This document shows positions 43,435-50,522 of a stretch of DNA of 64,000 nucleotides, one piece after another (the first letter of the stretch is position 1; every line of letters begins with the position of its first letter). The stretch covers positions 1-64,000 of the forward strand of contig JAKQFH010000003.1 of NCBI GenBank assembly GCA_029556265.1, read 5' to 3'. The notes beneath the pieces are model-generated. The model searched no databases. It was given only the letters and a program-made list of their open reading frames with translations, and was not told where the DNA came from. This stretch comes from Chloroflexota bacterium (GTDB lineage: Bacteria; Chloroflexota; Anaerolineae; Anaerolineales; Anaerolineaceae). A program made the position numbers and the translations under genes.

Positions 43435-44127
43435 ATGCTGTATCTTGTCGCGACCCCAATCGGAAACCTCGGGGATATGAGCTACCGCGCGGTGGAAACG
43501 CTGCGAATGGTGGATTTAATTGCCAGCGAGGACACACGCAAAACCAGCATCCTGTTGAAGCATTATGGAATATCCAAACCGCAGATCGCGTTCCATACCA
43601 TGAACGAAGCGAAAATGACTCCTAAATTGGTGGAGCGGCTGTTGGCTGGTGAGAACATCGCGCTGGTGACCAACGCGGGCACTCCCGGGATTTCTGATCC
43701 GGGCTATTCCCTCACGCATGCCGCGGTTCAGGCGGATATAGCGGTCACATCCATCCCTGGGGCTTCCGCGGTTATTACGGCGCTTACCCTTGCCGACTTG
43801 CCCTTGCACAGTTTTACTTTTAAGGGCTTCCCCCCGCATAAAGAAGGTCCGCGCAAGCGCTTTTTGGAGCAGGAAAAGCATTCCGCCCACACCCTGGTGT
43901 TTTATGAGAGCCCGTACCGCCTGATCGCATTCCTGAAAAATGCGCTGGAAATCTACGGCGACCGACGCGCGGTGCTTGCAAACGACCTGACCAAGAAGTT
44001 TGAGACGATCTGGCGCGGAAGTTTGAGCGAAATCCTGAGTGGCGTAGAAGCAAGCCCGATTAAGGGTGAATTCTGCATCTGCATTGAGGGCTGCGGGGAA
44101 GAAAAACCTAAAACGAAAGAGGGCTGA
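43435..44127 (+). CDS. rsmI: 16S rRNA (cytidine1402-2'-O)-methyltransferase
   Basis: This 230-residue tetrapyrrole-methylase-fold enzyme has the RsmI signatures [40 protein letters not shown] and YESPYRL. In E. coli it methylates the ribose of C1402 in the decoding centre of 16S rRNA. Residues are fully canonical, in contrast to the second RsmI-like gene at 49815. Its end overlaps the convergent yhhQ gene by 20 bases. Confidence 0.95.
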
Positions 44128-44842
44128 GATCCGAGAGGTCTGAATAAGTGTCCAGGTTTTCCGCTTTTTTCAGGCGGTTGGTCACCCAATACGTCGCGGG
44201 GGTCATGATAACTTCAATAGCAACCTTAAAGAGGTAATTGGTGAGGGTGAGCGTCAGGAACAGTTCCCAGGGGAAAACCCGGGTAAGCGCGCCCACCGCG
44301 ATGAAAACCGCCGTATCAACAAGTTCGCCCACCAGAGTGGAGCCAATCGTGCGCACCCACAGCCATTTGCCCTGGGTGGCATGTTTGAGCAGCGCCATAA
44401 TGACCGCGTTGGAAAAACTACCGCCCAGGTAGCCCAGGAAGCTTGCCAGAACAATTCCACCGGTGCTTATTCCGCCCAGAATTTTGTCATAAGCCGATTG
44501 ACCGACAGAATCTAACCAGGTTGTCTCGCCCGGGAGCCTTTGAATGAGGAAAAACATCAGGGTGGTAAACGCCAGGCCCAGGAAGCCAATCCAGATAACC
44601 CGCCGGGAGATTTGGTACCCGTATACTTCCGTGAGGACGTCCCCAAAGATATAGGCGATGGGAAAGAAAAGCGTGCCGGCGTCGAACGCCAGCGGAACCC
44701 CACCCAGGGAGACGCCCCAACCGATGAGTTTTGCCGATGAGGCGATGTTGCTGAGCGCCAGAACCAACGTGAAAACCACCGTTACGATATCCAGGTACCG
44801 GAAAGGGCGCGGCGCGGGCTTGGAGTGCGCGTTGTGGTCCAT
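44108..44842 (-). CDS. yhhQ: Queuosine precursor transporter (YhhQ/VUT family)
   Basis: This 244-residue membrane protein has about six to seven helices and the family pattern of [17 protein letters not shown] followed by RRVIWIGF. YhhQ imports queuosine precursors (preQ0/preQ1 or queuine) for insertion at tRNA position 34. The start is taken as the ATG at 44842; a longer reading through a GTG at 44884 would cover the divergent promoter palindrome. A tRNA-guanine transglycosylase homologue lies 4 kb away at 48724, consistent with a salvage role. Confidence 0.92.
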
Positions 44843-44849
44843 CAACGCA

Positions 44850-44876
44850 AAGTATACCTGTAAAAAAGGTATACTT
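44850..44876. promoter_or_regulatory. Palindromic divergent promoter of yhhQ and rsmE
   Basis: AAGTATACC (44850-44858) and GGTATACTT (44868-44876) form a perfect 9-base inverted repeat with a 9-base A-rich spacer. Each arm contains TATACT pointing outward. The two -10 elements lie 8 and 10 bases before the start codons at 44842 and 44886, so both transcripts should be leaderless or nearly so, and the palindrome itself could bind a dimeric regulator. Confidence 0.6.
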
Positions 44877-44885
44877 GTCCGCACG

Positions 44886-45638
44886 ATGCAGCGCTTTTTT
44901 GTGAATCCAGAAGCAATTCAGGACGGGGTAGTCCATTTCCCGGAGGCGGCAGCCCGCCAGATAGAAAAAGTGCTGCGTATGGACCTCCAGCTTGATGAAG
45001 TTCTCGTGTTGGACAACAGCGGCAGAAGCTTTCAGGTGCGCCTGAGCGGCAGGCAGTCTGGAACGCTGCGCGGAGAAGTGCTGCGGGTGCTTGAAGCTGA
45101 CCCGCGGACAGAACCGCGCCTGGAATTGGGTTTCAGCCTGTCTAAACGCGAAAAAGTGGAGTGGATTCTGCAGAAAGGAACGGAACTGGGAGTCAGCGCG
45201 TTCAGACCCTTCGTTTCGGAACGCAGCCTGGACCGCGGGTTGAAGCTGGATGAAGCCAGGTGGGCACGGTGGACCGCGATTATCCGGGAAGCTGCCGAGC
45301 AATCCCGGCGAACGCGCCTGCCGGAATTGCGCGCGCCTTTGAATTACGCGGATGGGTTGGGGCGCTTCCCACAGCAAAGCACCCGCTTGATTGCCTGGGA
45401 AGGAGCAGCACCGGAGTTCAGGCTGAGCCAGGAATGGTTTGCTGCCCGTGGCGGTGAGGCAGCCCCGGGCGCCAGCGTGCTGATTGGCCCGGAGGGCGGC
45501 TTTAGCGCGGAAGAGGTGCGGTTGGCGGAAAAAGCGGGCTTCAGGCAGTTCTCGCTCGGGCGGAATGTGCTGCGCATGGAAACCGCCTGCCTGACAGCCT
45601 GCGCTTTATGCGCGCACTATCTCGGCATCTCTTGTTAG
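44886..45638 (+). CDS. rsmE: 16S rRNA (uracil1498-N3)-methyltransferase
   Basis: This 250-residue SPOUT-fold enzyme has an N-terminal PUA-like part (MQRFFVNPE, EKVLRMD) and the C-terminal knot with IGPEGGFSAEEV and SLGRNVLRMETA, both RsmE signatures. In E. coli it methylates N3 of U1498 in helix 44. The ATG at 44886 gives the family N-terminus exactly and lacks a ribosome-binding site, in line with a leaderless transcript. Its TAG overlaps the TAA of the convergent rsmF-like gene within four bases. Confidence 0.95.
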   Translation: MQRFFVNPEAIQDGVVHFPEAAARQIEKVLRMDLQLDEVLVLDNSGRSFQVRLSGRQSGTLRGEVLRVLEADPRTEPRLELGFSLSKREKVEWILQKGTELGVSAFRPFVSERSLDRGLKLDEARWARWTAIIREAAEQSRRTRLPELRAPLNYADGLGRFPQQSTRLIAWEGAAPEFRLSQEWFAARGGEAAPGASVLIGPEGGFSAEEVRLAEKAGFRQFSLGRNVLRMETACLTACALCAHYLGISC

Positions 45639-47107
45639 GGGTTCAGAATCGCGCGGGAGGGCAGCAGATTGCGCAGCCGTCCGGGGAGGTTTTTCCCCGC
45701 GCCAAGGTTCCTGCCCTCGGCGTCACGCAGGGCGATGATGCTGCTTTTTTGGCAGCCGCTCACCGCGACGCCGCGAATATCGTGGCCTTGCAGCCACTGA
45801 CGCACCCATTCCTCAGGAATTGTCCACACATTACTCCTGAACCGGTCTCCAAAACGGCTTACCATTTCGGGGGAGAGCTCAAAATTTGTTCCGCTCCATT
45901 TGCCAAAAGGGAAACCTAAAGCGTAATAAGGCAGTTCAGAAAAGCCGCGCAGGTATTGCTCTGGCAGAAGGAAAAGCTGCCGCTCCCGGCGGTAGGGCAG
46001 CAGCTTACGTTTTTCTGTTTCCGCGCGGAAATCGAAACTATACAGGTCTTGCAGCATGGTAAACAGCAAAACCTGGTCTTTGGTTTCCAGGCGTTCCAGT
46101 CCGGTTTTAATGAAAGGCCGGAAAGGCGGCATCTGCCGGGGAAGGTTAAGCGGGGTGAGTTTGATGAGCTTGACCGCGAAAAAGCCGTTGGTACCCGCCA
46201 GGTGCGGCCATAAGCGCAGGCTGTGCGCGGCTTGCGGGTCAAAGTCGCGCCCTGCAAAGTGGGTTAATCCAGGGGCGTTCAATTCCGCCACCGTCGCGCG
46301 CTCCACACGGACACTGCCAGGATGTTTCTCCAGGAAGTCGCTTAAGACTGCTTCGTTCTCTTCCGGTGCAAGCGTGCAAGTGGAGTAAACAATTTCCGCG
46401 CCGACGCGCGCCGTGCTGACCGCAGACTCAAGCAAAGCGAATTGGCGCGCGGAAAGGCGTTCCCGTTCCGCCGCGGTAATCGGACGGAACGGATGGCTGG
46501 CGGAAACGCGCAGACCCTCCATGCTGCAGGGGGCATCGAGCAGTACGCGGTCAAAACGCTCAGGGAACCACGCGCCTAATTTTTCTCCCGGGAAATTGAT
46601 GACGGCGGTGTTAGCCGCGCCCCAGTTGAGAAGCACCACCCGCAGCGCTTGCAGCCGGCTGGCGCTGGAGTCGTTGGCGAGCACCAGGTTGGCGTCGCCG
46701 CCGCTATCCACCAGCTGCGTGGTTTTCCCGCCGGGCGAGGCAGCCATATCCAGCATGAGCCCATCGGTTGGGAGCGGGGAGAAAAGAGAAACTGGCAGAA
46801 TGGAAGCGGCGTCCTGAATGTAGTAATAGCCGAAACGGTGTTCGATGGTCTGTCCGGGCGGCGTTTGCGCGGAAGAAATTTGCCAGGCGTTGGACGCGAA
46901 AGGAACGGGCCGAGCCTGCCAACCATACGGTTGGCTCCAGCGGGAAAACGCTTGCCGCGGGTCGGGGTTCTTGAGAAGGTTTACGCGTACGGCACTGTCG
47001 GCGGGTTGGCTCACAACGCTGAGGAGCCGCGCGTATTCTTCCGGCGGGAGGCAGCTTTGATAGCGTTGCACAGCGCTGAGGACTGGGTCGGCAGGCGTGT
47101 CTGTCAC
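45635..47107 (-). CDS. rsmF: RsmF-like rRNA (cytosine-C5)-methyltransferase
   Basis: This 490-residue NOL1/NOP2/Sun-family enzyme has the SAM loop DMAASPGGKTTQL and the two catalytic cysteines Cys194 (DAPCSMEG) and Cys244 (YSTCTLAPEENE). A C-terminal extension of about 180 residues ends in a PUA-like domain (GRNLGAGKNLPGRLRN), the RsmF arrangement. In E. coli RsmF makes m5C1407 of 16S rRNA; in Thermus it acts on several nearby cytosines. It is the last gene of a five-gene overlapping operon and overlaps the upstream Rmt-like gene by 4 bases. Confidence 0.9.
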   Translation of the reverse strand: MTDTPADPVLSAVQRYQSCLPPEEYARLLSVVSQPADSAVRVNLLKNPDPRQAFSRWSQPYGWQARPVPFASNAWQISSAQTPPGQTIEHRFGYYYIQDAASILPVSLFSPLPTDGLMLDMAASPGGKTTQLVDSGGDANLVLANDSSASRLQALRVVLLNWGAANTAVINFPGEKLGAWFPERFDRVLLDAPCSMEGLRVSASHPFRPITAAERERLSARQFALLESAVSTARVGAEIVYSTCTLAPEENEAVLSDFLEKHPGSVRVERATVAELNAPGLTHFAGRDFDPQAAHSLRLWPHLAGTNGFFAVKLIKLTPLNLPRQMPPFRPFIKTGLERLETKDQVLLFTMLQDLYSFDFRAETEKRKLLPYRRERQLFLLPEQYLRGFSELPYYALGFPFGKWSGTNFELSPEMVSRFGDRFRSNVWTIPEEWVRQWLQGHDIRGVAVSGCQKSSIIALRDAEGRNLGAGKNLPGRLRNLLPSRAILNP

Positions 47108-47934
47108 CGCGATGAGCCTTTCCGGATGATAAAAAGCAGTTCATTCCCCACCTGATCTTGTTCGATTCCCCAACCCCGACCAGCGCAAGCTTTATCTATA
47201 AGCTGCGTGTGGTAGTCTACGAGGCTGTGATGCCCGCTCAGGTCTGCCGCAGGCAGACTGACCAGCAGCAGCGGCGCGCGCACGGCAGAGAAAAACGCGT
47301 CGTTGCATCCGGATTGACGCTTTTCAAAGCGGTGGGCTTCCTTGAAGAAAAACGCGCAGTCCGCCTCAATTTCGGGCGGTTCGCCAAGGATGTCCTGATG
47401 AATGGCCCGCGCGGAGGGGTATTTCAAGGCAAAAAATTGGCTGAGGAACTCCAGCCGGGGTTTGTGGATGTCGTACGCAAAGAAATTTACCTCCGCGGGC
47501 AGGTCCAGCCATAAGAGCATCAGCGGGTCCAGCGCGCAGGCCAGGTCCAGCACGGTGCCGGGAGAGCCAATGATTTTGCGCAATTTCCCGCAAAATTCAT
47601 CCAGATGGGGAAGCCGTTCGCGGGTGGAGGCGTGTTTCGACATAACGCCGGCAGCCCAGGCTTTTTGCTCACTTATGGTCGGGTTGGTTTCAAAGAACGA
47701 ACGCATTGCCTCGGATTCGGTGGGGTAGTCAATATCCTCAAGATACGGCGCGACGATATTATGCAGTTTTCTGCGGAAAGCGGCCGTGATTTCGGCACTG
47801 CTGCCGCCTTTGGCAGTCTGTTCCGTGAGGATTTGGCGCAGCAAATTCCCGGGCAGGTCCAGCTCGCGGTATTTACGCGAAGCGCGGACTTCGGCAATGA
47901 TTTTCTCGACCAGGCTCTCATCCATCGCGTTCAC
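47104..47934 (-). CDS. Divergent Arm/Rmt-family 16S rRNA methyltransferase homologue
   Basis: This 276-residue protein keeps the Arm/Rmt-family N-terminal half: helical domain, HASTRERLP (101-109), SAM-binding DLACALDPL (130-138, where the family has ACGLNPL) and YDIH (154-157). Its C-terminal signature is changed: FFKEAHRFEKRQSG (196-209) replaces the LLKxLPxLExQ-type segment, and SLPAADLSGHHSLVDYH (226-242) replaces SFPT(R/K)SLGGRxxGM. GNELLFIIRK (263-272) is retained. It may have a different target or be a partner of the canonical copy just upstream. The GTG at 47934 overlaps that gene's stop; the ATG at 47925 is an alternative start. Confidence 0.8.
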   Translation of the reverse strand: MNAMDESLVEKIIAEVRASRKYRELDLPGNLLRQILTEQTAKGGSSAEITAAFRRKLHNIVAPYLEDIDYPTESEAMRSFFETNPTISEQKAWAAGVMSKHASTRERLPHLDEFCGKLRKIIGSPGTVLDLACALDPLMLLWLDLPAEVNFFAYDIHKPRLEFLSQFFALKYPSARAIHQDILGEPPEIEADCAFFFKEAHRFEKRQSGCNDAFFSAVRAPLLLVSLPAADLSGHHSLVDYHTQLIDKACAGRGWGIEQDQVGNELLFIIRKGSSR

Positions 47935-48743
47935 CGGGAGAGCAAAAAGACCATTTCGGTGGGGAAGTTAAATTCGCGCACATGAAAGCGCGCACCTTCC
48001 ATCAGACGGGCAAACTGCTGGGAATAGGTCTGGCGCATGCCTTTTTCCCGGCCCCCAAGGCTCTTAGAGGGGTAAGAGACCAGGATATGCTCGGCACGGA
48101 TTTGCGACAGCAGGCGGGCGCTCAGACTCTTATCCAATTGGTCCAGGCAGGGCAGCGTTTTGAGCAGGATGGCCAGCTGAACCTCCTGCCGCGGGATTTC
48201 AGAGCTAAGGTCGCAGGGGAAGGCTTCGCCCTGAGCCGAGGCCGCCCTGAAGAAATGGTTCAGGAAGCTCAGCATGGGCAGGATGACATCGCAGGCGAGG
48301 TAAGTGCAGCCCGGCGCGAGAGGCATCCAGGGCAGCGCCAGCGGGTTCAGCCCGCATGCCAGGTCCAGGATTGAATTTATCGGCGCGATATCCGCCAGGC
48401 AGGTCTGGAAAAAATGGTCAACATAGGGCAGACGTTCGGCTGTGGAGTTGTGCAGGCGCATCATCCTCCGGCAAAAAGCCTGCAGTTCTTCTGGGTTTTC
48501 TGGGGGTATGGATTTTAAAATATCCGACCACTTCGCGTAGTTAATTTCAGGGGCGAGAAACGCGCCGGTTACCTGATGCAGGCGGGTGCGGGCAGCTTTC
48601 AGCGCGGCTTTGTACTCCCCGCGTTTTTCCAACTCTTCAGCCGCAACGCGCGCCACCAGGCTGGGGGCGAGCTGGGAGTATTTCGCGCTCCCGCAAATTG
48701 CCTGGATCAGCTTATCGAGGGCATCAGGAGAGGATGGGTTCAT
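47931..48743 (-). CDS. Arm/Rmt/FmrO-family 16S rRNA (guanine1405-N7)-methyltransferase homologue
   Basis: This 270-residue protein carries the whole signature of the aminoglycoside-resistance 16S m7G1405 methyltransferases. After an N-terminal helical domain come HNSTAERLP (98-106), the SAM site DLACGLNPLALPW (127-139), ACD (150-152), LLKTLPCLDQ (193-202), SYPSKSLGGREKGM (223-236) and EMVFLL (263-268). Family members in antibiotic producers (FmrO, Sgm, KgmB) and acquired ones (ArmA, RmtA-H) methylate G1405 in the A site and block 4,6-disubstituted 2-deoxystreptamines. Here it is embedded in a housekeeping-style RNA-modification operon with unremarkable base composition, so it looks native. 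GGAG lies 10 bases before the ATG. Activity is inferred. Confidence 0.88.
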   Translation of the reverse strand: MNPSSPDALDKLIQAICGSAKYSQLAPSLVARVAAEELEKRGEYKAALKAARTRLHQVTGAFLAPEINYAKWSDILKSIPPENPEELQAFCRRMMRLHNSTAERLPYVDHFFQTCLADIAPINSILDLACGLNPLALPWMPLAPGCTYLACDVILPMLSFLNHFFRAASAQGEAFPCDLSSEIPRQEVQLAILLKTLPCLDQLDKSLSARLLSQIRAEHILVSYPSKSLGGREKGMRQTYSQQFARLMEGARFHVREFNFPTEMVFLLSR

Positions 48744-49818
48744 CGCTCAGATGCTCCATCAGGCGGGTCATAAAACGCAGATTGTGTTGGGTGGCAAGAC
48801 GGAAATAGGCGCTATCTTGCATGCGGTAAAGGTGGCTGAGGTAGCCCAGGCTGTAATGTTGGCAGGCCGGGCAGTCGCATCCCGGAGAAACTGGCTCTTT
48901 ACTGCGCATATACTTTTCATCGTTCACGTAACGGAAAGCGAACCAATCCTTGCCTGTGCCGGGCACAGCGCTCGCGGAAGATAGCGTATAGAGGCGCCCG
49001 TGGCGCGCGTCCCGGGTGGGCATGGCACAGTCGAACATCGCGTAGCCCATGCGGTAGCAAGCCGAGACGCTGACCGGATGTCCGATGCCGAGCGCGTGGA
49101 TGGGGAACTCGCGCGGCACCACAGAACGGGTGTATTCCAGAATATCTGTGAGCAGATTGGACTGTTCATCCAGGGGCCAGCCGCCAAAGCCAAACCCGTC
49201 AAAACCAATTTCAAGCAAGGCTTCGGCACAGGTTTTACGCAGCTGCGGATAGCCGCCGCCCTGAATGACGCCGAAGATGAGCGGTCTTTGGTCCGGGTTC
49301 GTTTTTCGGGAGGCAAGCTGGCTCTCGTAAGCGAATTTCGCGCGCTTTGCCCATTGAATGGTGCGGCTGACCGAAAGCTGCTGTTCTTCGAAAGGAGCGT
49401 CCACGTGTGTGCAGTCATCCAGGCAAATCAGGATGTCCGCGCCGTAGCTGAATTGGAGTTGGATGCTTTTCTCGGGCGTGAGAATCAGTTTGCGGCCGGA
49501 GGCTTCGGGCCGGAAAATGATGCCGTTTTCACCCAGGCTGCCAAATTTCGCGTTCTGACGAATGAGGGAATAGGCCTGAAAGCCGCCCGAGTCGGTCATG
49601 ATGACTGAGTCCCAGGCTGCCATTGTGTGCAAGCCTCCCAAAGATTGGATGACCGAGGAGCCGGGTTTTTGCATCAGATGAAACGCGTTCATCATAAGGG
49701 CTTTGACGCCGACTTCATGCAAGTCGGCGCTGGTGAGGCTGCGCACATAGCCGTAGGTCGCGTCTGGCAGGAAAGCAGGCAAAGCCAATTCCCGACCGCG
49801 AATGTTCAGCGTGTTCAT
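48724..49818 (-). CDS. tRNA-guanine transglycosylase-family protein with altered substrate loop
   Basis: This 364-residue TGT-fold protein has all catalytic residues: Asp76 (TDSGGFQ), Asp134 (LDDCTH), Gln186 (GVIQGG), nucleophile Asp263 (FDCAMPTRDARHG), and the zinc site Cys314, Cys316, Cys319, His345. The base-selecting loop after GFGFGG reads WPLDE (214-218), where bacterial enzymes have LAVGE (preQ1) and eukaryotic ones LSGGE (queuine). The incoming base may therefore differ. Its ATG overlaps the stop of the RsmI-like gene by 4 bases and its end overlaps the Rmt-like gene by 20. yhhQ nearby could supply the base. Confidence 0.88.
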   Translation of the reverse strand: MNTLNIRGRELALPAFLPDATYGYVRSLTSADLHEVGVKALMMNAFHLMQKPGSSVIQSLGGLHTMAAWDSVIMTDSGGFQAYSLIRQNAKFGSLGENGIIFRPEASGRKLILTPEKSIQLQFSYGADILICLDDCTHVDAPFEEQQLSVSRTIQWAKRAKFAYESQLASRKTNPDQRPLIFGVIQGGGYPQLRKTCAEALLEIGFDGFGFGGWPLDEQSNLLTDILEYTRSVVPREFPIHALGIGHPVSVSACYRMGYAMFDCAMPTRDARHGRLYTLSSASAVPGTGKDWFAFRYVNDEKYMRSKEPVSPGCDCPACQHYSLGYLSHLYRMQDSAYFRLATQHNLRFMTRLMEHLSDEPILS

Positions 49819-50522
49819 AATCTGCCGAACTGCTTTCTCCGCGGGCGGTCCAAAATGAGGATGAACTCGGCTTTACGGTTGTTGATCTGCCGGATTACTT
49901 CCTCGACTGACCCGAGGTAAATCTTCTCGCCGGGCAGGGTCAGGTCGCAAGCCAGGCAAACGCGCTGATTTTTACCAAAAGCCTGCTGTACTTCCAAAAG
50001 CAGCTTTCCCAGCCGATAGGGGGTGTCCATCAGAATGATGGGCTGGTCCGCGCGGCTCAGTCGGGAAAGAACGCTCTGGCGCTGCTCTGTTTTGGGCGGC
50101 AAAAAGCCCGCGAATTGAAACTGCCCCAGGTCGAAAGGGCAAACGGATATCGCCGCAATCAGAGAGGAGGCGCCAGGAACAGGAACAACCCGAATGTTCA
50201 TTTCGGCGAGCAAGACCAGCAGCTGACGCCCCGGGTCCGAAAAAACAGGCGTACCGCAGTCCGAAATTAACGCCAGCGACTGACCTTGCATGAGCAGAAC
50301 CAGAATATCCTGCGTCATACTGCTTTCGTTATGCTCGTTAAGTTCAATCAGCGGCTTCTCCAGCCCGAGCTCTTTTAGCAGGCGCGCGCCGTTCTTTCTT
50401 TCCTCGCAGACGACTGCATCCACGTTTGAGAGCACTTCCACGGCGCGGCGGGTAACATCCGCGGAGTTGCCAATCGGGGTGGCAACCACATAGAGTGCCC
50501 CAGCAGGGTTTTCAGCGTGCAT
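49815..50522 (-). CDS. RsmI-like SAM-dependent methyltransferase, divergent paralogue
   Basis: This 235-residue tetrapyrrole-methylase-fold protein resembles RsmI (VVATPIGNSADVTRRAVEVL, SDCGTPVFSDPG) but differs at characteristic positions: CEERKNGARLLKELG where RsmI has SEDTRKTxxLL, and MDTPYRLG in place of YESPYRL. A canonical RsmI is already encoded at 43435, so this copy probably modifies another site or substrate. It is the first gene of the operon with the TGT and Rmt homologues; AGAGG precedes the ATG. Confidence 0.85.
   Translation of the reverse strand: MHAENPAGALYVVATPIGNSADVTRRAVEVLSNVDAVVCEERKNGARLLKELGLEKPLIELNEHNESSMTQDILVLLMQGQSLALISDCGTPVFSDPGRQLLVLLAEMNIRVVPVPGASSLIAAISVCPFDLGQFQFAGFLPPKTEQRQSVLSRLSRADQPIILMDTPYRLGKLLLEVQQAFGKNQRVCLACDLTLPGEKIYLGSVEEVIRQINNRKAEFILILDRPRRKQFGRL

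Follow-up and report, generated by a model that had tools for sequence, protein, structure and literature searches.

The closest described relative of the locus studied here is the plasmid-borne rmtG operon of Klebsiella, which has the order rsmH-tgt-rmtG-rsmI and includes tgt as part of the operon (PMC9311965, PMC3904158). The presence of a tgt gene beside rmtG is already known, and the sections of these reports that describe the operon treat tgt as the genetic environment of rmtG, give it no function and draw no tie to Chloroflexota, producers or preQ1 genes. In the literature we found no functional account of a TGT-FmrO link, the nearest being that remark on rmtG. The rmtG product belongs with the Sgm/FmrO/Arm/Rmt methyltransferases that form m7G1405. 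The bacterial queuosine Tgt is a transglycosylase of tRNA G34, while DpdA and archaeal TgtA perform 7-deazaguanine exchange outside G34, so the TGT family can shift its target. The housekeeping enzymes acting around G1405 are RsmF, RsmI/H and RsmE, some of which are blocked by Arm/Rmt enzymes (PMC12406665).

The window analyzed was a 64,000-nucleotide stretch from a member of the Anaerolineaceae (Chloroflexota). A sequence-only reading had described a five-gene overlapping operon in it, and we confirmed five minus-strand ORFs at 45635-50522, with overlaps in transcription order of 4, 20, 4 and 4 bases. The first gene (49815..50522) encodes an RsmI-like methyltransferase, RsmI2, that passes the RsmI equivalog cut-off TIGR00096 (180 vs 168 bits; Pfam TP_methylase, 94 bits). 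It is followed by TGT2 (48724..49818), a divergent enzyme of the tRNA-guanine-transglycosylase family (Pfam TGT, 305 bits, cut-off 26), then by FmrO-A (47931..48743), FmrO-B (47104..47934) and an RsmF-like 16S rRNA m5C methyltransferase of the RsmB/F family (45635..47107). The last of these has RsmB/F catalytic and RsmF N-terminal domains that were both above Pfam cut-offs (RsmB-F 119 bits, RsmF_N 45 bits), while its PUA domain was below and the protein scored under the RsmF equivalog cut-offs. Like the Klebsiella rmtG operon, the window operon pairs TGT2 with an FmrO-family enzyme and has flanking C1402 methyltransferases, but it carries two FmrO genes and RsmF, and lacks RsmH.

The two middle proteins had been read as Arm/Rmt-type methyltransferases, and their family placement held: FmrO-A (169 bits) and FmrO-B (131 bits) were both well above the Pfam FmrO (PF07091) cut-off of 27 bits. 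Neither reached the 250-bit cut-off of the NCBIfam Rmt_gen equivalog (NF000466) for m7G1405 activity (218 and 146 bits, respectively), a cut-off strict enough that the Sgm-type enzyme of Microtetraspora also falls below it at 241 bits. FmrO-A is a putative FmrO/Rmt-family 16S rRNA m7G1405 methyltransferase of similar length to known members and with motifs resembling those of Sgm, its best PDB match (3lcu, E=1e-43), and by alignment has all the family-conserved residues (the Arg of ERLP, two Asp, Lys and the KGM loop). FmrO-B kept the Arg, both Asp and the Lys, but is missing the KGM loop and has a KEAHR motif of its own. It grouped with other second paralogues in a clade of their own (17 rows, SH-aLRT 99), as a diverged, ancient paralogue. 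The FmrO pair differs from described Sgm/FmrO/Arm/Rmt enzymes in its equivalog scores, in comprising two paralogues and in being embedded with TGT2.

The reading had also proposed that the operon was native rather than an acquired resistance cassette, and had suggested comparing gene order among relatives. The order TGT2-FmrO-A-FmrO-B-RsmF was kept on the same strand in 19/19 of the TGT2-bearing Anaerolineaceae neighbourhoods read, three of which had an insert between FmrO-A and FmrO-B; the RsmI-like first gene was more variable (6/19). Based on this conserved order, and on the correlation between TGT2 and FmrO distances (Mantel r 0.82), comparative evidence indicates that the operon is native and old, with no signs of recent insertion. 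At 44-52 kb the sequence showed no gene for a transposase or integrase and no direct repeats marking a boundary, no tRNA gene was found, and the GC content of the operon was 0.55-0.60 against ~0.55 for the window, bearing out the reported lack of a mobile element or base-composition break. We therefore rejected a recent insertion or mobile cassette in this genome, and the locus lacks these two marks of an acquired resistance cassette. What did not stand was the either/or, as genes of this kind are also found together in the cluster of an aminoglycoside producer and on clinical plasmids bearing rmtG, rmtD2, rmtB2 and rmtE2.

The reading's "TGT homologue" was correct as to family, but TGT2 is not the housekeeping Tgt, whose gene lies elsewhere in the genome. 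In our tree all FmrO-linked TGTs fell into a single clade that excluded the 15 canonical Tgt proteins (support 100/100), and by these sequence comparisons TGT2 is a separate subfamily, distinct from canonical Tgt. This FmrO-dependent subfamily is the most novel part of the operon. Its match to solved TGTs had an E below 1e-60, a homology by which its fold is already set. With queuosine Tgt it shares the catalytic Asp pair, the Zn site (CxCxxC...H) and Arg286/Arg289; in the window protein the catalytic Asp (D102 of Z. mobilis TGT) is codon 76 (49591..49593) and the nucleophile Asp (D280) is codon 263 (49030..49032). In contrast, the preQ1/ribose pocket residues V45, L231, A232 and V282 are replaced by D19, W214, P215 and A265, and pocket residues were altered in every TGT2 aligned. 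Asp19 (49762..49764), at the position of Val45, whose function in canonical TGT has been described (PMC5395182), was invariant wherever the N-terminus was present, whereas every aligned canonical TGT had Val. Codons 214-215 (49174..49179), which replace Leu231-Ala232 and alter the base and uracil-33 pocket, were W/Y/F-P in 32/32 TGT2 proteins, against Leu-Ser/Ala in 13/15 canonical TGTs, the other two being actinobacterial rows unaligned at this site. Across the subfamily the differences from queuosine Tgt comprise V45->D, G46->A, K52->R, L231->W/Y/F, A232->P and L259->A/G, as well as short insertions and a genetic dependence on FmrO. The window TGT2 was barely above the NCBIfam Tgt equivalog cut-off (TIGR00430, 310 vs 306.75 bits), while actinomycete and rmtG-plasmid members were below it (263-296 bits). 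TGT2 scored only 23 and 100 bits against DpdA and archaeal TgtA, far under their cut-offs, and those enzymes have other partners. A scan of viral contigs found no TGT2 relatives, and we rejected a viral origin.

Among 400 Chloroflexota genomes, TGT2 was present in 71 and FmrO in 77, and FmrO accompanied TGT2 in 71/71 cases (Fisher P 2.7e-72). The two genes were adjacent in 58 of these genomes, within 10 kb in 6 and apart in 7. Within the Anaerolineaceae, 46/48 FmrO genomes had TGT2, and no recognisable TGT2 occurred in genomes of this family without FmrO. A canonical Tgt (~520 bits) was encoded elsewhere in nearly all Anaerolineaceae genomes, and TGT2 was thereby rejected as their sole TGT. 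An altered 16S rRNA target site was likewise rejected, since helix 44 was standard, with XGU sites present, in 5/5 host genomes having a 16S gene.

TGT2 also adjoins FmrO in Armatimonadota bins, and lies on a separate contig from FmrO in a cyanobacterial bin; these are all metagenome bins in which contamination is possible. In the Streptosporangiaceae, TGT2 was found in 4/251 genomes, where it is the only TGT, and its loci include genes of the preQ1 pathway (QueC/D/E/F), FmrO and RsmI, with RsmF too in two of them. The Microtetraspora locus lies beside genes for a DOI-synthase-type protein, inosamine-type aminotransferases and a keto-inosose-dehydrogenase-type protein, which by gene content places it within a 2-deoxystreptamine-type aminoglycoside cluster. 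Another Streptosporangiaceae TGT2 locus adjoins APH(3'). Carriers of TGT2 that are available in culture include Pelolinea submarina, Longilinea arvoryzae, Chloroflexus islandicus, Dictyobacter and Microtetraspora sp. NBRC 13810. On clinical plasmids TGT2 was next to rmtD2, rmtG, rmtB2 and rmtE2, in the orders cut RsmH-TGT2-RmtD2, RsmH-TGT2-RmtG-cut RsmI, TGT2-RmtB2 and cut TGT2-RmtE2, and the plasmid TGT2 and Rmt trees shared their branching. No TGT2 was found near rmtB1, rmtC, armA or rmtF on plasmids.

Together, these data support well a TGT2-FmrO module as such. TGT2 and FmrO travel with enzymes for the same patch of helix 44, namely RsmI/RsmH (C1402) and RsmF (C1407), in several phyla, the producer cluster and clinical plasmids. 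We give an even chance to the proposal that the operon is a small-subunit decoding-site module in which TGT2 would place a preQ1-type 7-deazaguanine into helix 44 of 16S rRNA beside the FmrO methylation, and the rRNA target taken by itself seems to us similarly balanced. In this proposal FmrO-A would methylate N7 of G1405 and TGT2 would exchange a helix 44 guanine for a preQ1-type base. G1405, G1494 and G1497 would be the candidate sites because each precedes a U, fitting the retained Arg pair, which we take to be the reader of U35. TGT2 might remove the FmrO-made m7G, a good leaving group, by exchange, or it might modify a second guanine such as G1494; both versions agree with TGT2 depending on FmrO but not the reverse, and in both the deep-groove N7 contacted by aminoglycosides would become blocked. 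The additional RsmI, RsmF and RsmH copies may restore or adapt nearby methylations that FmrO-type enzymes block. Against the proposal, we know of no report of a 7-deazaguanine in rRNA. In its fullest form the proposal is more tentative, at somewhat under an even chance: TGT2 would be the first known rRNA-directed transglycosylase, converting either FmrO-methylated G1405 or G1494 in helix 44 to preQ1 or a relative, and a 7-deazaguanine decoding site would protect producers, environmental bacteria and the hosts of hospital plasmids against aminoglycosides.

Several further observations run against the decoding-site proposal. Rmt enzymes confer resistance without TGT2, and the rmtE2-linked TGT2 copies are truncated. 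QueF was above cut-off in only 6/61 Anaerolineaceae, so de novo preQ1 was rejected as general support in this family, and the base there would need to come by salvage (YhhQ) or perhaps is not preQ1; the altered base pocket, too, could mean a different base. In addition, m7G and 7-deazaguanine cannot both occupy G1405, and the window TGT2 still scores as a Tgt equivalog.

The main rival, which we consider unlikely but of real weight, is that TGT2 is a specialised tRNA Tgt placing preQ1 or Q at position 34 of the anticodon, or elsewhere in tRNA, for good decoding on G1405-altered ribosomes, its tie to FmrO then being functional but through tRNA. Its sequence family and catalytic residues are of the tRNA Tgt type, and Q34 interacts with aminoglycoside action, loss of tgt in V. 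cholerae costing 10-1000x in fitness under tobramycin and gentamicin (PMC10117853). However, Chloroflexota hosts usually have a canonical Tgt already, the pocket is altered in every TGT2, and the partners of TGT2 all act on 16S rRNA helix 44. It is rather less probable that FmrO-A and FmrO-B have lost m7G1405 formation, and instead target different nucleotides of helix 44 or, for FmrO-B, serve as a non-catalytic partner, leaving the operon without an aminoglycoside link in Anaerolineaceae. Their equivalog scores and the lost loop and KEAHR motif of FmrO-B are consistent with this, but FmrO-A retains the family sequence along its whole length and among solved structures is closest to Sgm, and the residues that FmrO-B retains are (near-)invariant in the family alignment.

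Guanine leaves more readily once its N7 is methylated, and TGT2 could on that basis be a base-exchange eraser or tuner that returns FmrO-made m7G1405 to guanine or preQ1. Such an enzyme would account for FmrO occurring without TGT2 but never the reverse, and would limit the fitness and fidelity costs of m7G1405 (PMC12406665). We think it improbable, as the dedicated preQ1 pathway in the Streptosporangiaceae cassettes favours insertion of a new base over plain removal. That the clustering is mere genomic convenience, with TGT2 functionally unlinked to FmrO in a general ribosome-modification locus, appears very improbable. The operon does adjoin housekeeping RsmE and RsmI genes and a transporter in the window, but co-occurrence was complete even where the genes lie apart, and the correlated distances and independent contexts (actinomycetes, plasmids) also argue against it.

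The pairing of TGT2 and FmrO in this module, a producer cluster and hospital plasmids suggests a mode of decoding-site alteration that has not been described before. If TGT2 edits 16S rRNA, 7-deazaguanine base exchange would extend from tRNA and DNA to rRNA. There would also be a reason for the tgt beside several clinical Rmt genes, a pointer to an ancestral operon as the source of mobilised Rmt genes, and a testable account of why m7G1405 genes accompany C1402 and C1407 methyltransferases. Should TGT2 target tRNA instead, a dedicated, FmrO-restricted Tgt would still connect tRNA modification with aminoglycoside resistance in a new way.

A scan for promoter and terminator motifs was uninformative, with promoter-like matches at chance level and 12 terminator-like matches vs 7.4 +/- 2.8 expected. 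The conserved neighbours are a plus-strand, canonical-type RsmI (43435..44127; TIGR00096, 221 bits), by which RsmI is duplicated in the window, a minus-strand YhhQ-type queuosine-precursor transporter (44108..44884; TIGR00697, 105 bits, cut-off 51) that adjoins the operon in many relatives, and RsmE of the U1498 methyltransferase family (44658..45638, plus strand, convergent with the operon; Pfam Methyltrans_RNA, 145 bits). The RsmE profile match starts only at residue 74, and the real start of this gene is probably ~44880. Databases label TGT2 as an ordinary Tgt.

The sequence-only reading had described five overlapping minus-strand genes and assigned each product to a family of RNA-modifying enzymes; the open reading frames and the Pfam and NCBIfam profiles bore out both. 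The genes encode an RsmI-like enzyme (RsmI2, 49815-50522), a divergent tRNA-guanine-transglycosylase (TGT) family enzyme (TGT2, 48724-49818), two FmrO (Arm/Rmt)-family paralogues (FmrO-A, 47931-48743; FmrO-B, 47104-47934) and an RsmF-like enzyme (45635-47107), with overlaps of 4, 20, 4 and 4 bases. As the ordinary Tgt of this genome is encoded on a separate contig (G000:C77, 519 bits), TGT2 is its second TGT. Databases label TGT2 an ordinary Tgt because its 310 bits exceed the NCBI equivalog cut-off of 307 for tRNA-G34 Tgt.

FmrO-A kept all the conserved motifs of its family in alignment, and its closest solved structure was Sgm (E=1e-43). FmrO-B was more diverged (Pfam 131 bits, a KEAHR motif and no KGM loop) and grouped in the tree with second paralogues, some of them from other Anaerolineae, in an old clade of 17 rows (SH-aLRT 99). 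Since both proteins scored below the NCBI equivalog cut-off for m7G1405, we only infer that activity for them.

The order TGT2, FmrO-A, FmrO-B, RsmF on one strand was found in all 19 TGT2-bearing Anaerolineaceae neighbourhoods, with RsmI2 ahead of TGT2 in 6 of them. Three of them have insertions of unrelated genes that separate FmrO-A from FmrO-B: a two-component system (L094, 8900-11460), a methyltransferase-like protein with other ORFs (L109, 8139-10883) and a chemoreceptor-like protein (L110, 7730-10108). Among 400 Chloroflexota genomes scanned, FmrO was present in 77 and TGT2, distinguished by score (355-638 bits vs at most 306 for other TGTs), in 71. All 71 were FmrO-positive and none FmrO-negative (Fisher P 2.7e-72, a statistic that ignores relatedness). 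The pair was adjacent in 58 of these genomes, within 10 kb in 6 and apart in 7, so the link is independent of adjacency. Six genomes had FmrO only; two of these (G176 and G382) are nearly complete, and FmrO can therefore exist without TGT2. The FmrO of G176, which lies directly upstream of RsmF (L096, 8945-9742), is single and very diverged (26% identity). Within the Anaerolineaceae, TGT2 occurred in 46 of 48 FmrO-bearing genomes; the sole TGT of one FmrO-negative genome (G428, 65% complete) was a fragment too short for assignment.

Neighbourhoods were also inspected after an FmrO profile scan of 84,980 species genomes. RsmI-TGT2-FmrO was found in two Armatimonadota bins, and FmrO and TGT2 on separate contigs in a cyanobacterial bin, all of which may be contaminated. 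In addition to TGT2 and RsmI, the actinomycete Microtetraspora sp. NBRC 13810 carried two FmrO genes, one of them of Sgm type. A TGT search gave no match in FmrO-bearing Saccharomonospora, Actinokineospora and two Patescibacteria (L145, L160). FmrO genes occur in Patescibacteria genomes of ~1 Mb (L145, L160, L211).

TGT2 was present in 4 of 251 Streptosporangiaceae genomes, adjoined by genes for QueC, QueD, QueE and QueF-II. All four Que proteins of Microtetraspora exceeded curated cut-offs, as did QueC and QueF of G565, whose QueE-like protein fell under its cut-off. With RsmI and an RsmF-like gene also present, G565 and G631 reproduce most of the window gene set plus the preQ1 pathway. Because TGT2 is the sole TGT of these four genomes, the base made by the Que proteins most plausibly feeds TGT2. 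The Microtetraspora cluster (L143, L233) also encodes DegT aminotransferases, a glycosyltransferase, a PIG-L deacetylase, a keto-inosose-dehydrogenase-type protein and a DHQ-synthase-family protein, which we read as 2-deoxy-scyllo-inosose synthase. Neighbours in G636 (L240) include APH(3') and a similar keto-inosose-dehydrogenase-type protein, and both loci are apparent 2-deoxystreptamine aminoglycoside clusters. In the Anaerolineaceae the deazaguanine source is probably salvage: QueF exceeded its cut-off in 6 of 61 genomes, and by profile match RsmE, a YhhQ-type queuosine-precursor transporter (44108-44884) and a canonical-type RsmI directly adjoin the window operon. The same transporter, with RsmE and RsmI, adjoins the operon in many Anaerolineaceae (L091-L110).

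TGT2 residues were mapped to Z. mobilis numbering via conserved motifs rather than structural superposition. Where the region was present, D102, D156, D280, C158, Q203, R286 and R289 were kept in every TGT2, plasmid and actinomycete members included, as were nearly all zinc ligands. Substitutions shared by every TGT2 aligned were V45D, G46A/S, K52R, L231W/Y/F, A232P and L259A/G. The kept arginine pair is known as the reader of U35, and its retention would fit a target G that precedes U with a different 5' neighbour. Helix 44 of all host 16S genes examined offers such candidate sites at C1404-G1405-U1406, A1493-G1494-U1495 and C1496-G1497-U1498.

We read the module as one that may remodel the decoding site, because the cassettes carry the same families as the housekeeping helix 44 modifiers. 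FmrO would methylate G1405, as its family suggests, and the RsmI, RsmF and RsmH copies would adapt or restore neighbouring marks; that TGT2 inserts 7-deazaguanine into helix 44 we consider an even bet. Because aminoglycoside contacts in the deep groove fall at G1405 and G1494, a loss of N7 there would hinder drug binding. TGT2 is strictly dependent on FmrO, whereas FmrO does not depend on TGT2; this asymmetry points to one of two arrangements, in which m7G would serve as the leaving group for TGT2 or the TGT2 mark would be useful only next to m7G1405. The module's components are known families; rRNA transglycosylation, if true, would be categorically new.

As the main rival explanation, TGT2 may act on tRNA, in a form adapted to ribosomes that have been altered; deletion of tgt in V. 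cholerae does cost 10-1000x in aminoglycosides (PMC10117853). The changed pocket residues of TGT2, its exclusively 16S-directed partners and the canonical Tgt that Chloroflexota hosts usually own already weigh against this rival, which keeps a lower but real probability. An eraser role, in which TGT2 swaps m7G1405 back out, overlaps in its steps with decoding-site remodelling, and the proposal that FmrO-A and FmrO-B no longer make m7G1405 concerns a different gene, so the likelihoods of these explanations overlap and need not add up to one.

Clinical plasmids carry the same pairing: RsmH-TGT2-RmtG-truncated RsmI with rmtG, the 3' part of RsmH (our own ORF reading) followed by TGT2-RmtD2 with rmtD2, TGT2-phosphoesterase-RmtB2 with rmtB2, and with rmtE2 a truncated TGT2 beside an IS91-type element. 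No TGT was found near rmtB1, rmtC, armA or rmtF in the examples examined. The plasmid TGT2 tree, (E2,(B2,(G,D2))), was compatible with the branching of the Rmt enzymes and TGT2 and FmrO/Rmt distances were correlated (22 pairs, Mantel r 0.82, permutation P 1e-4), so the pairing probably predates the divergence of these four types. The relevant text of a review (PMC9311965) names rsmH, tgt and 'rsmL' as operon partners of rmtG, and that of a genome paper (PMC3904158) notes that rmtG is preceded by a putative tRNA ribosyltransferase; neither passage states a function. The open-access literature searched held no account of the cross-phylum TGT2-FmrO module, its preQ1 pathway in producers or the module's identity with the clinical tgt-rmt pairs, which is no proof of absence. 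The Enterobacter hormaechei plasmid pEc09 (L245) carries two tandem copies of the TGT2-rmtG unit.
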